This document shows positions 57,230 to 62,509 of a stretch of 64,000 bases of DNA, piece by piece; position 1 is the stretch's first letter; each line of letters starts with the position of its first letter. Below the pieces are notes generated by a model. The model was not told the origin of the DNA. It ran no database searches and worked only from the letters and a program-made list of their open reading frames with translations. The DNA lies in NCBI GenBank assembly GCA_019243635.1, contig JAFAUB010000008.1:62001-126000 (forward strand), given 5' to 3'. Source of the stretch: Pseudonocardiales bacterium (GTDB lineage Bacteria; Actinomycetota; Actinomycetes; Mycobacteriales; Pseudonocardiaceae). The position numbers and the translations under genes were made by a program.

Positions 57230-58267
57230 TTACTCCCCGAACCTCGCACCCAGGGCCGGCACCATCTCGCTGGTGACCACGCCGTGCTCGGCAGTGAGCT
57301 CGTCGACGATGTCGAAGGAGGTCGCGATCCGGTCGGTGGTGTCGATGATGATCGTCACCACCGGGACGCGGCGGCCCAGTTGCAGGAGGCGGTCGCCGTG
57401 CGGGGCGGTCTCGCCGTGGAACCCCCACATTCCGCGCAGGACGGTCGCGCCCCGGGCGCCGGAGGAGCGCAGCCGCCGCACCAGTGCCCGGTGCACCGGC
57501 TGCCCGTCATGCAACGCCCGTTCCGAGGTGTAGACCATGAGCTTCTGCCACATCGCCGTGCCGAGCTCGTCGGTGGTCGGCGGAGCGTGCGGGCGCTCGA
57601 CGAGCTCGCCGTCGCGCTTGCACACCCGGACCTGTTCGAGTGTGATCAACGGCTGGCGCAGCAGGCCGCCGAGCTCGGGAACGATCCGGCCGATCCGCTC
57701 ACCCGAGCCGACCGCGATGATCATCATGGGCACTTCGGCGTTGCGTCCGAGGAACCGAGCACGCCTGCGCCGGCCGTGGGCCGTCCCGTCGACGCCCAGC
57801 AGCGCGGTGGCGCCGGCGATGCCGCGGCGATGCAGCAGCTCGCACACCGCGGCGAAGGCCGGCACCCGGTACACCCGCTCCTGCCGGCCGACATAGACGG
57901 TCAGCTTGACCGCTCCCATCAGCTCATCGGGCAGGCGCAGGGGACCGAGGTCACCACGCAGCATGCGGGCACTCTCCAGCGTCACCAGCCCGCGGTGCTC
58001 GACCGCGGGAAGGTCCTCGAGCAGCGCCTCGATCCTGGGCCGGGTGTCCACCGCGACCGAGACGACCGGCAGGTCCTCGGACAAGGTGAGCAGCCGGTCG
58101 GTCCGCAGGTGATGCTTGAGCCCGAACCCCTCCGCGCCGCGGAGCAGGATGCTGGTGGTGATCTCCCGCCGCCCGAACAGGTCCAGCTGAGCGTCGGCGA
58201 GGAAAGTCCGGCCGCTGCGGTGCCGCTCACCGGAATACGTGGTCAGCTTCAGGCAGTCCGCGATCAC
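57230..58267 (-). CDS. Triple DUF190 (PII-like) protein
   Basis: The 345-residue protein is three DUF190 domains in a row, at about 1-108, 115-225 and 238-345. Each starts with a KLTTYSGE/KLTVYVGR/KLMVYTSE strand, then a GxxGATxLxGxxG-type loop and a PVVxxxxD strand. DUF190 proteins have a PII-like ferredoxin fold, are usually single-domain (about 110 residues) and often accompany CrcB fluoride channels. Three domains in one chain could form the trimer that PII proteins normally make from three subunits. ATG 58267 overlaps the crcB stop by 4 bp. Confidence 0.9.
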   Translation of the reverse strand: MIADCLKLTTYSGERHRSGRTFLADAQLDLFGRREITTSILLRGAEGFGLKHHLRTDRLLTLSEDLPVVSVAVDTRPRIEALLEDLPAVEHRGLVTLESARMLRGDLGPLRLPDELMGAVKLTVYVGRQERVYRVPAFAAVCELLHRRGIAGATALLGVDGTAHGRRRRARFLGRNAEVPMMIIAVGSGERIGRIVPELGGLLRQPLITLEQVRVCKRDGELVERPHAPPTTDELGTAMWQKLMVYTSERALHDGQPVHRALVRRLRSSGARGATVLRGMWGFHGETAPHGDRLLQLGRRVPVVTIIIDTTDRIATSFDIVDELTAEHGVVTSEMVPALGARFGE

Positions 58268-58629
58268 AGATGGCTCCCGACCAGCCGGCCCAGCGCCGCC
58301 GCGGCGACGCCGGCGAACAGGCTCACCACCACGTTGGCCGCCAGGTTCCGCATCTGGCGATCCTCACCGAGGCGCTGGGTCTCGAACATCCAGGTGGAGA
58401 AGGTGGTGTACGAGCCCACCGCGGCGGTGCCGGCCAGCAGCGCCTCATCACGGCCGGGCGCCAGGCCGGTGATCAGGCCGAGCAGGACCGCGCCGGAGAG
58501 GTTGACCACCAACGTGCCGTACGGGAAGGCGCTCCCCGTTCGGGAGGCGATCACGCCGTCGACGGCGAAGCGGAGCACCGAGCCCGCGCCGCCGATCAGC
58601 ACCACCCCGACCCACAGCACCACGGTCAT
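58264..58629 (-). CDS. crcB: Fluoride channel subunit CrcB/Fluc
   Basis: This 121-residue protein has four membrane helices: [20 protein letters not shown], the conserved [19 protein letters not shown] (Asn in NxxG), [12 protein letters not shown] (Phe-box) and [16 protein letters not shown]. These are Fluc fluoride-channel motifs; two subunits form one antiparallel dual-pore channel. It starts within an ATGA overlap with the upstream crcB, and its own stop overlaps the DUF190 start, so the operon is tightly coupled. Confidence 0.93.
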
Positions 58630-59027
58630 GCCCGGATCCGTACCCGTCGCACCATGGCGGTCGCGAGGTGGACCGCGCCGTAGCCGCCGACGACGCTCGC
58701 CGACGTGTAACCGGCGGCAAGCCCGAAGTGCCGCGCGTCGATCATCATGAGCAGCTCGACCTGCATCGTCGAGAACGTGGTGAGCCCACCGCACAGACCA
58801 GTGCCCAGCAGCGGCCGCCGGTAGCTGGACAGCGGCAACCGCTCCTGCAGGCGGGTGACGAAGTAGCCCAGCAGGAAGGCGCCACCAAGGTTCACCGCGA
58901 AGGTCACCCACGGCCAGCTCCCCGCCGCTGCGGGGTACACCTCCGCCAGAAGCCCACGACACAGCGCCCCGATCGCGCCAACGGTGAAGACCGCCGCCAG
59001 CTCCCGGCGGTCCGGTAGGGGCATCAT
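58626..59027 (-). CDS. crcB: Fluoride channel subunit CrcB/Fluc (partner)
   Basis: From ATG 59027 the 133-residue protein has four helices with Fluc motifs: [14 protein letters not shown] (Arg), [18 protein letters not shown] (Asn), [20 protein letters not shown] (Phe-box) and a final [16 protein letters not shown]. With the downstream crcB it probably makes a heterodimeric channel, as in many Gram-positive bacteria. There is no clear Shine-Dalgarno. A TTTAAAT element lies 6 nt before the ATG and could be the -10 of a leaderless transcript. ATG 59024 is an alternative start. Confidence 0.9.
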
Positions 59028-59080
59028 CGTCGGATTTAAACACGGGTGGTTCGCGGTCGACCGGGCGACGGGTGCTTCAC

Positions 59081-59116
59081 GGTCGCCCGGGGCGCTTGTC
59101 CCGGCCCCGGGCGACC
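59081..59116. promoter_or_regulatory. 13-bp-stem hairpin upstream of the crcB operon
   Basis: GGTCGCCCGGGGC (59081-59093) pairs perfectly with 59104-59116 around a 10-nt loop. It lies 55 bp upstream of the first crcB start. It could be a leader hairpin if transcription starts upstream. It does not resemble the fluoride riboswitch. Confidence 0.5.
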
Positions 59117-59190
59117 TCACCCCCTCGGGACCCCCACACAGTCGACGCCTATCGAGTGTCGCTCATAACACCAGGCGTGACCACCCATAA

Positions 59191-59210
59191 AACATACCAG
59201 TGGGTATGTT
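59191..59210. promoter_or_regulatory. ARE-like palindromic operator of the TetR-family gene
   Basis: AACATACCAGTGGGTATGTT is a perfect 8-bp dyad (AACATACC / GGTATGTT) with a 4-bp centre. It matches the general form of the autoregulatory elements bound by gamma-butyrolactone receptors (ACATACC...GGTATGT). It lies 78 bp before the TetR-family start codon, so autorepression is expected; control of the divergent crcB operon is possible. Confidence 0.7.
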
Positions 59211-59287
59211 AGCACCGCCACTGAAAATCCACCACCCGTAAACTGGTTACAGCTCAACAGGCCCAGCACGGGTAGCTTCGAGGAGTC

Positions 59288-59971
59288 ATGTCCAGCACCG
59301 GTCACCCAAGACCCGGAGCCGGCGACAGCGATGCCCGCTCACGCCGGGTCAAGCCGCAGCCGCGGGCCCGGGCCACCCGGCTGGCGATCCTGACCGCCGC
59401 CGCTGAGCACTTCGCCCGAAACGGCTACCACGCCACCTCGCTGGACGGCGTGCTGGCCGACAGCGGCGGGACCAAGGGGGCGCTGTACTTCCACTTCGCC
59501 TCCAAGGACGCCCTGGCGCGAGCGGTCATCGCCGTGATGGCGCGGGGATGGGGAGATCTCCGCGAGCATGTCAGCGCTCGCGGGCTCGACCCGCTCTCGG
59601 CGCTGCTGGCGATGGCCGACGAGGTGGTCGCGCGGCTGGTCGACAACCCGATCGCCCGAGGCGGCATCCGGCTGGTCAACGACCGGCCACTGAGCGCCCA
59701 GGACACACCCTGGCACTACGGGTTCGCCGAACGTGACGTCCTCGCTCTGTTGACCCAGGCCGCGCAGGCCGGCCTGCTCCAGACAGGGATCGAGCCGGCG
59801 CTACTCGCCCGGCAGGTCGTCGCCGTGGTAGCCGGCCACCGGCAGGTATGCGAGTCGATGGGCGGCCGCCACGACCTAGGACAGCGCGTTGAGGAGGCCT
59901 GGGACCTGCTGCTCCCCGCAGTCGCCACCGAGGCATGGCTGGCTGCCTGGCGCGCCACACGATCCCGGTAG
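59288..59971 (+). CDS. TetR-family regulator, gamma-butyrolactone-receptor-like
   Basis: The 227-residue product starts at ATG 59288 (GAGGAG upstream). The N-terminal HTH (about 25-75) reads RATRLAILTAAAEHFARNGY, ATSLDGVLADSGGTKGALYFHFASKDALARAVI (in part: TKGALYFHF), which closely follows the ArpA/ScbR receptor pattern. The C-terminal ligand domain has Trp residues (DTPWHYGF, EEAWDLLLPA). Together with the ARE-like operator this suggests a receptor for a small diffusible signal or a derived pseudo-receptor. No butyrolactone synthase (AfsA) gene is in the window. Confidence 0.85.
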   Translation: MSSTGHPRPGAGDSDARSRRVKPQPRARATRLAILTAAAEHFARNGYHATSLDGVLADSGGTKGALYFHFASKDALARAVIAVMARGWGDLREHVSARGLDPLSALLAMADEVVARLVDNPIARGGIRLVNDRPLSAQDTPWHYGFAERDVLALLTQAAQAGLLQTGIEPALLARQVVAVVAGHRQVCESMGGRHDLGQRVEEAWDLLLPAVATEAWLAAWRATRSR

Positions 59972-61258: not shown

Positions 61259-62509
61259 GTGGAGCTGACCAGCAACGAACGGGCCAAGCAGCGAGGGCTG
61301 CGCCGGATGAAGGCGGTCGCGCTGGCGTTCCTGCTGGGTGCCGCGGTGGTGTACGTGGTGGCGGGGCGCAACGGGAACGCCGCCCCCTGGGTCGGGTATG
61401 CGCAGGCGATGGCCGAGGCCGGCATGGTCGGCGCCCTGGCCGACTGGTTCGCCGTGACCGCACTGTTCCGACACCCCCTCGGGTTACCGATCCCGCACAC
61501 CGCGATCATCGCGCGCAAGAAGGACGCGCTCGGGGAGAACCTCGGCGACTTCGTGAGCGACAACTTCCTTGCCCAGGAGGTGGTGGCCGACAAACTGCGC
61601 CGGGTGGGGATCGGCGGTCGGCTCGGCGGCTGGCTGGTGCAGCCCCGCAACGCCGAGCGCGTCACCGCTGAGCTCGCCACCGCGGTGCGCGGCGCGGTGG
61701 CTGTGCTGCGCGATGAGGACGTCCAAGCTGTGCTGGAGAATGCGCTGGTGAAACGCCTGGTCGAGCAGCCGTGGGGGCCGCCGCTGGGTCGGTTGCTCGG
61801 TCAGCTGCTCGCCGACGGGGCGCACCACAAACTCGTTGACCTGGTCACCGAGCGGGCCTATGAGTGGGTACGCGACAACCACGGCGCGGTACTGCGGGTG
61901 GTCAGCCAGCGCTTGCCGGGGTGGTCGCCGAGGTTCGTCGACGAGCTGGTCGCCGACAGGCTGTACGCGGAGGTGTTGGCGTTCGCCTGGTCGGTGCACA
62001 CCGAGCCCGATCACCCCATGCGCAAGGCGGTGGACACCTTCCTGATGGAGTTCGCCCAGGACCTGCGGACGGACCCGGCCACGATCGAGCGCGCTGAGGC
62101 GGTCAAGCTGCAGGTCATGGCGCACCCCGAGGTGCGGATCCTGGTCGGGTCGGCGTGGGGAACCGCGAAGAAGATGCTGCTCGCCGCCGCCGAGGACCCG
62201 TCCTCGGAGCTGCGACGCCGGGTGCGTGACGGGCTGGTCACGCTCGGCGAGCGGCTGACCGGGGACGCGGAGCTGCGATCCAAGGTGGACACCTGGCTTC
62301 AGGGCGTGGCCGGCTACGTGGTCTCCAACTACCGCAGGGAGATCATCACCCTGATCACCGACACGGTGCAGCGCTGGGACGCCCAGGAGACCTCCCGCAA
62401 GGTGGAGCTGCAGGTCGGCCGGGATCTCCAGTTCATCCGGATCAACGGCACCGTGGTGGGTGCCCTGGCCGGTCTGGCCATCCACATCGTCTCCCGGCTC
62501 ATCATGTGA
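61259..62509 (+). CDS. DUF445 membrane protein
   Basis: This 416-residue protein has an N-terminal membrane helix (about 17-38), a helical pair AGMVGALADWFAVTALFRHPLG (conserved DUF445 signature with DWFAV and FRHPLGLPIPHTAII), a long amphipathic helical body and a final membrane helix (about 395-415, VVGALAGLAIHIVSRLIM). DUF445 (YjiN/YheB type) function is unknown. GTG 61259 is used; it is divergent from the exported hypothetical gene. Confidence 0.9.
   Translation: MELTSNERAKQRGLRRMKAVALAFLLGAAVVYVVAGRNGNAAPWVGYAQAMAEAGMVGALADWFAVTALFRHPLGLPIPHTAIIARKKDALGENLGDFVSDNFLAQEVVADKLRRVGIGGRLGGWLVQPRNAERVTAELATAVRGAVAVLRDEDVQAVLENALVKRLVEQPWGPPLGRLLGQLLADGAHHKLVDLVTERAYEWVRDNHGAVLRVVSQRLPGWSPRFVDELVADRLYAEVLAFAWSVHTEPDHPMRKAVDTFLMEFAQDLRTDPATIERAEAVKLQVMAHPEVRILVGSAWGTAKKMLLAAAEDPSSELRRRVRDGLVTLGERLTGDAELRSKVDTWLQGVAGYVVSNYRREIITLITDTVQRWDAQETSRKVELQVGRDLQFIRINGTVVGALAGLAIHIVSRLIM

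Follow-up and report, generated by a model that had tools for sequence, protein, structure and literature searches.

The tetR gene described here probably encodes an orphan member of the ScbR/ArpA family that acts as a local autorepressor, with a remodelled ligand pocket and a fluoride operon as a positional neighbour. It lies in a 64,000-nt stretch of DNA from a Pseudonocardiales bacterium (hereafter the window). Judged from their sequences, the gene and its operator are a real, conserved and self-contained ScbR-family autoregulatory unit of a known kind. In the mechanism we propose, a dimer of the protein would bind a 20-bp operator that lies about 100 bp ahead of the tetR start and, once bound, would repress tetR and perhaps also the adjacent divergent transcription. 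Because the pocket is remodelled, the inducer, if there is any, would not be a classical gamma-butyrolactone (GBL) or butenolide. The fluoride operon would lie at the margin of a variable region as a positional neighbour, rather than being the defining target of the regulator.

Family placement and operator

The 227-aa product of tetR (59,288 to 59,971, plus strand) contains the helix-turn-helix string TKGALYFHF that the preliminary description had reported. Its proposed place among ArpA/ScbR-like receptors is confirmed by a family model, by sequence and fold matches in the PDB, and by trees. The protein scores 155.8 bits against NF041196, the NCBIfam equivalog model for ScbR autoregulator-binding proteins, for which the cut-off is 150, and the other clade members tested likewise exceed the cut-off (orthologs at 157.8 and 166.7 bits). 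Among solved structures, its best sequence matches are MmfR, CprB and AvaR1. When an AlphaFold model made with 20 aligned relatives as input (mean pLDDT 86.7) was used for a PDB fold search, places 1 to 34 were all occupied by MmfR, CprB, AvaR1 or TylP. The best PDB match is MmfR, the methylenomycin furan receptor (PDB 6srn/7ky1), which leads both in sequence (96.8 bits) and in fold.

A phylogeny within the TetR proteins, which had been suggested as a check, gave the same placement. The protein falls among CprB/AvaR1/MmfR-type receptors, does not group with unrelated TetR repressors, and stands apart from five other TetR proteins of its own genome. The split between these receptors and the own-genome outgroups has moderate support (SH-aLRT 86), and the outgroup branches are long.

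The perfect ARE-like operator claimed for the tetR promoter is present as well. Positions 59,191 to 59,210, a feature to which no strand is assigned, read AACATACC-AGTG-GGTATGTT and form a perfect 20-bp palindrome about a 4-bp centre. Its first position is 97 bp before the start of tetR, which leaves 77 bp between operator and gene, and it is 163 bp from the start of crcB1, the nearest gene on the other side. It is the sole match in the window at up to three mismatches, with no matches in 100 dinucleotide shuffles, and the only match to ACATACC-4-GGTATGT at up to two mismatches in the 4.52-Mb genome.

Both gene and operator are conserved. Ten of 11 genus genomes have tetR, the nine other proteins being 65-76% identical to the window protein, and in all ten the operator precedes the start codon by 82-97 bp. 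The AACATACC half is invariant in the genus, the other half is usually GGTGTGTT (in the window GGTATGTT), and the most diverged operator is that of species G048, AGTTTGTT. Sites resembling AACATACC-4-GGTCTCTT are found upstream of about 20 deeper orthologs (approximately 40% identity) in other genera of the family; such an upstream site was sought and not found for loci L019, L023, L025 and L044. Autoregulation is the usual behaviour of the ScbR-type receptor family. The persistence of the site in front of this gene from one genus to the next argues for it here too, and autoregulation appears to be the best-supported function of tetR.

Control of secondary metabolism, which the preliminary description associated with such receptors, found no support. 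The genome-wide operator search proposed there produced no strong second site and no sign of control over a biosynthetic cluster. A regulon scan at up to two mismatches returned six further operator-like sites in the genome, a count close to that of the control. Four of the six are inside predicted genes, and no operator-like site other than that of tetR was found to be shared with the sister species. A wider operator regulon was rejected on these grounds. The single strong site in the genome, with none other common to the species, suggests a narrow regulon.

Fluoride genes and the operator-hairpin block

As previously noted, tetR is located next to fluoride genes. Three genes on the minus strand are divergent from it: crcB1 (58,626 to 59,027; PRK14216, 202 bits) and crcB2 (58,264 to 58,629; PRK14228, 173.6 bits), which code for two fluoride channel (Fluc) subunits, and a gene for a DUF190 (COG1993) protein (57,230 to 58,267; PF02641, 231 bits, three stretches). 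This third protein of the operon, after the two-subunit CrcB pair, has three tandem DUF190 stretches in one chain. On the downstream side of tetR, a DUF445 gene (61,259 to 62,509, plus strand; PF04286) is a conserved neighbour by genus synteny; it is present wherever the contig reaches, in most species with an aminotransferase gene between the two.

The divergent crcB1-crcB2-DUF190 arrangement is found beside tetR in five of the ten species (G000, G048, G002, G103 and G106). In the remaining five (G080, G102, G105, G100 and G104) no crcB adjoins tetR, and the gene and its operator are still there; the divergent neighbour is ettA in G080, G104 and G105. Genomes G105 and G048 carry this fluoride operon at another site, where tetR is lacking. 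The operator therefore does not track with crcB (ten of ten for the operator, five of ten for adjacent crcB). The earlier suggestion that the fluoride pairing could be chance is largely upheld: half of the genus has the pairing, but tetR and its operator are retained where crcB is missing. Because crcB is absent beside five of ten tetR genes and the fluoride operon occurs elsewhere without tetR, the pairing, recurrent in the genus yet separable from the regulator, seems to be positional.

The unlinked copy in G048 (L138, G048:C234:6594-8376) is a second crcB1-crcB2-DUF190 set, 79-84% identical to that of the window and without tetR or operator. It may be a duplication or MAG contamination.

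Fluoride riboswitches are associated with other fluoride genes, in the sister species. None was found before crcB in the window, and a search of the window genome returned no credible match (best E 0.87). Just past DUF190 in G002, G048 and G106 there is a fluoride riboswitch that precedes a hydrogenase/Nuo-like gene; one of the three matches is above the gathering score and two are just below it. Four more riboswitch matches are 17-20 kb away in G002, one of them just before a predicted enolase gene and near a predicted pyrophosphatase gene, both named from sequence inspection. The region in G002 (L194, G002:C31:384138-387246; L046:6547-6614) is a fluoride island. Its five riboswitch matches all fall in about 20 kb around the tetR ortholog, and it also holds a hydrogenase/Nuo-like operon and the predicted enolase and pyrophosphatase genes.

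The genus has a conserved hairpin, GGTCGCCCGGGGC-loop-GCCCCGGGCGACC (59,081 to 59,116, minus strand), in the interval that separates crcB (or ettA) from the operator; it has 16 pairs in the genus alignment and shows covariation. In an alignment of nine genus species, from which the degenerate copy of G048 was left out, 98.6% of cells pair over these 16 pairs, compared with 28-55% in slid controls. Six pairs have changed on both sides, a number reached by none of 500 shuffles. Hairpin and operator together delimit a single-copy conserved non-coding block of about 140 bp (59,075 to 59,210, minus strand; cmsearch match, 136 bits). A covariance model of this block finds a single strong match per genome in the ten genomes, always before tetR, and the idea that the hairpin is a repeated element was consequently rejected. 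The same kind of search found no match in the loci of other genera, and the block has no match in Rfam. A candidate pseudoknot between the loop and GTCCC was also discarded, since G100 and G103 have uncompensated changes in the loop.

The G-U pairs of the hairpin are confined to the minus sense; read in the plus sense, it has none. They represent about four independent events and are a weak sign of an RNA whose transcription runs leftward from the operator. Candidates for what the block encodes are a small RNA, a leader and an insulating terminator; a scan for a sigma-70 promoter and a U-tailed terminator found neither. The operator-hairpin block gives the idea of a divergent small RNA a concrete and testable locus.

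Two readings would give this region a larger role. According to the first, the operator-bound repressor represses both tetR and crcB1-crcB2-DUF190 in species having both. The fluoride operon of the crcB-bearing species begins only about 160 bp from the operator (in the window, 163 bp for crcB1, against 77 bp for tetR), the adjacency recurs in five species, the interval of about 30-95 bp from hairpin to crcB leaves little room for a separate promoter, and a riboswitch that might otherwise serve crcB was not found in the window. Even so, the five species without adjacent crcB conserve the operator and hairpin just as well, neither of the fetched loci with the unlinked operons of G048 and G105 matches the operator-hairpin block, and the riboswitches of the sister species go with other fluoride genes. 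We regard such divergent control as possible, if unlikely. A second reading, which we consider rather unlikely, is that a repurposed hormone-receptor-type repressor, its lactone pocket lost, uses one operator to control itself and a divergent small RNA of about 110 nt ending in the hairpin, and that the fluoride operon is also controlled where it has settled downstream of that RNA. A local autorepressor that would leave crcB uncontrolled is the reading we prefer.

A further feature was encountered in other genera. In 11 of the 12 other-genus loci examined, a small protein of approximately 90-100 aa (VSEEQVHRARMAVAR..LDSEDCRDLLDMLGL..PPVRR) is encoded directly upstream of the orphan ScbR-like gene (loci L049-L059 include examples at L052:7165-7455 and L051:5573-5887). 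It has no Pfam or NCBIfam match and is missing in the genus of the window.

Ligand pocket and the hormone synthase

Receptors of this family have a conserved Trp (W119 in ArpA, W127 in CprB and W121 in ScbR) that is needed for ligand binding, and the W119A change in ArpA eliminates ligand binding and leaves DNA binding intact (PMC3461410). Among 90 putative butenolide receptors, Trp127, Gln64 and Thr108 are conserved (PMC7347384). The window protein has Ala147 at the canonical Trp position. In the alignment, every one of the ten genus orthologs has A, G, S or V in this column and none has Trp, whereas 57 of the 61 rows from outside the genus have Trp, AfsA-adjacent paralogs included; L019, also outside the genus, has V. 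The column of AvaR1 Gln64 is Met in ten of ten genus orthologs and Gln in none.

These substitutions indicate that the pocket has probably been remodelled in the genus orthologs, with the ligand Trp and Gln lost clade-wide, and the protein would not be expected to respond to classical lactones. The missing Trp could be functionally replaced, in which case a lactone ligand remains conceivable.

It is also doubtful that the protein is a pseudo-receptor answering an antibiotic or other foreign small molecule, like ScbR2, JadR2 and SfbR2. No synthase was found, and the pI of 9.7 falls within the range that PMC7480387 gives for pseudo-receptors. The tetR protein nevertheless departs from the usual pattern, because the pseudo-receptor SfbR2 keeps its Trp (W128; PMC7480387) and the window protein has none. 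Moreover, the pI of the orthologs spans 6.6-10.7, and there is no GBL cluster near tetR.

The preliminary description was correct that no synthase gene is nearby. A search for synthases of the AfsA (PF03756) type found none near tetR and none in the whole draft genome, a 4.52-Mb assembly in 177 contigs with an estimated completeness of 97.9% and contamination of 5.1%. The gene could be missing through draft assembly. Its absence is nonetheless informative because the same search matches in 32 of 100 family genomes, including the sister species G002 and G048. In both sisters, AfsA directly adjoins another ScbR paralog, which is 38-40% identical to the window protein and keeps Trp. In a tree, all 15 AfsA-adjacent receptor rows are outside a 34-row orphan clade (support 98) that consists of the window protein and other orphans not seen beside AfsA. 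Because the AfsA-adjacent receptors lie outside its clade, the window tetR lineage is better described as an old paralog than as the hormone receptor of the genus. The AfsA/ScbR pair of the two sister species (L060 and L061, from G048 and G002) is absent from the window genome, which may reflect a recent loss of hormone signalling.

That the protein is a true GBL or butenolide receptor, eavesdropping on the hormone of neighbours or sensing that of a synthase which escaped recognition, agrees with its family, fold and ARE-like operator but is quite improbable, and the receptor identity first suggested for it is not supported in the strict sense, given the loss of Trp and Gln64 in ten of ten orthologs when 57 of 61 other rows keep Trp, the lack of any AfsA found in the genome, and the separate Trp-bearing receptor beside AfsA in sister species. 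A literature search for a GBL receptor linked to fluoride, or for GBL receptors in Pseudonocardiaceae, found nothing relevant in the collection of papers searched.

Significance and comparison with known systems

The gene and operator are of an already known kind; what is variant at this locus is that the ligand signature is lost throughout the genus and that a covarying hairpin is attached. A branch of the Streptomyces-type hormone-receptor family persists here without the synthase and, in the genus of the window, without a supposedly essential ligand residue, and yet the operator is kept. The clade therefore represents a natural test of the role of such receptors once they are uncoupled from quorum signals. 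It also serves as a caution that neither the label "autoregulator-binding (GBL) receptor" nor the presence of a stress operon next door establishes a ligand or a regulon.

With the ScbR/ArpA/CprB/AvaR1 receptors (NF041196), tetR shares the TetR subfamily, the fold, the helix-turn-helix signature, the operator half-site ACATACC and the position of the operator before its own gene. It differs in that it has neither the ligand-contact Trp nor Gln64, has no AfsA in its genome, and belongs to a clade separate from the AfsA-adjacent receptors. MmfR, whose hormone is not a GBL, is the closest to tetR by sequence and fold, but it keeps Trp and sits in a cluster for a furan hormone and antibiotic, neither of which is true of tetR. 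The pseudo-GBL receptors ScbR2, JadR2 and SfbR2, which bind ARE sites and not GBLs, are of the same family as tetR; SfbR2 keeps its Trp, unlike tetR, and all three genes are located in antibiotic or GBL clusters. Finally, the locus resembles the crcB, eno and ppa genes under fluoride riboswitch control in that a fluoride exporter operon directly adjoins tetR and a sister species has a riboswitch before a predicted enolase gene in the same region. It differs from them in that no such riboswitch was found in the window genome, and the exporter operon instead adjoins the gene of a protein repressor, the operator of which does not follow crcB from species to species.
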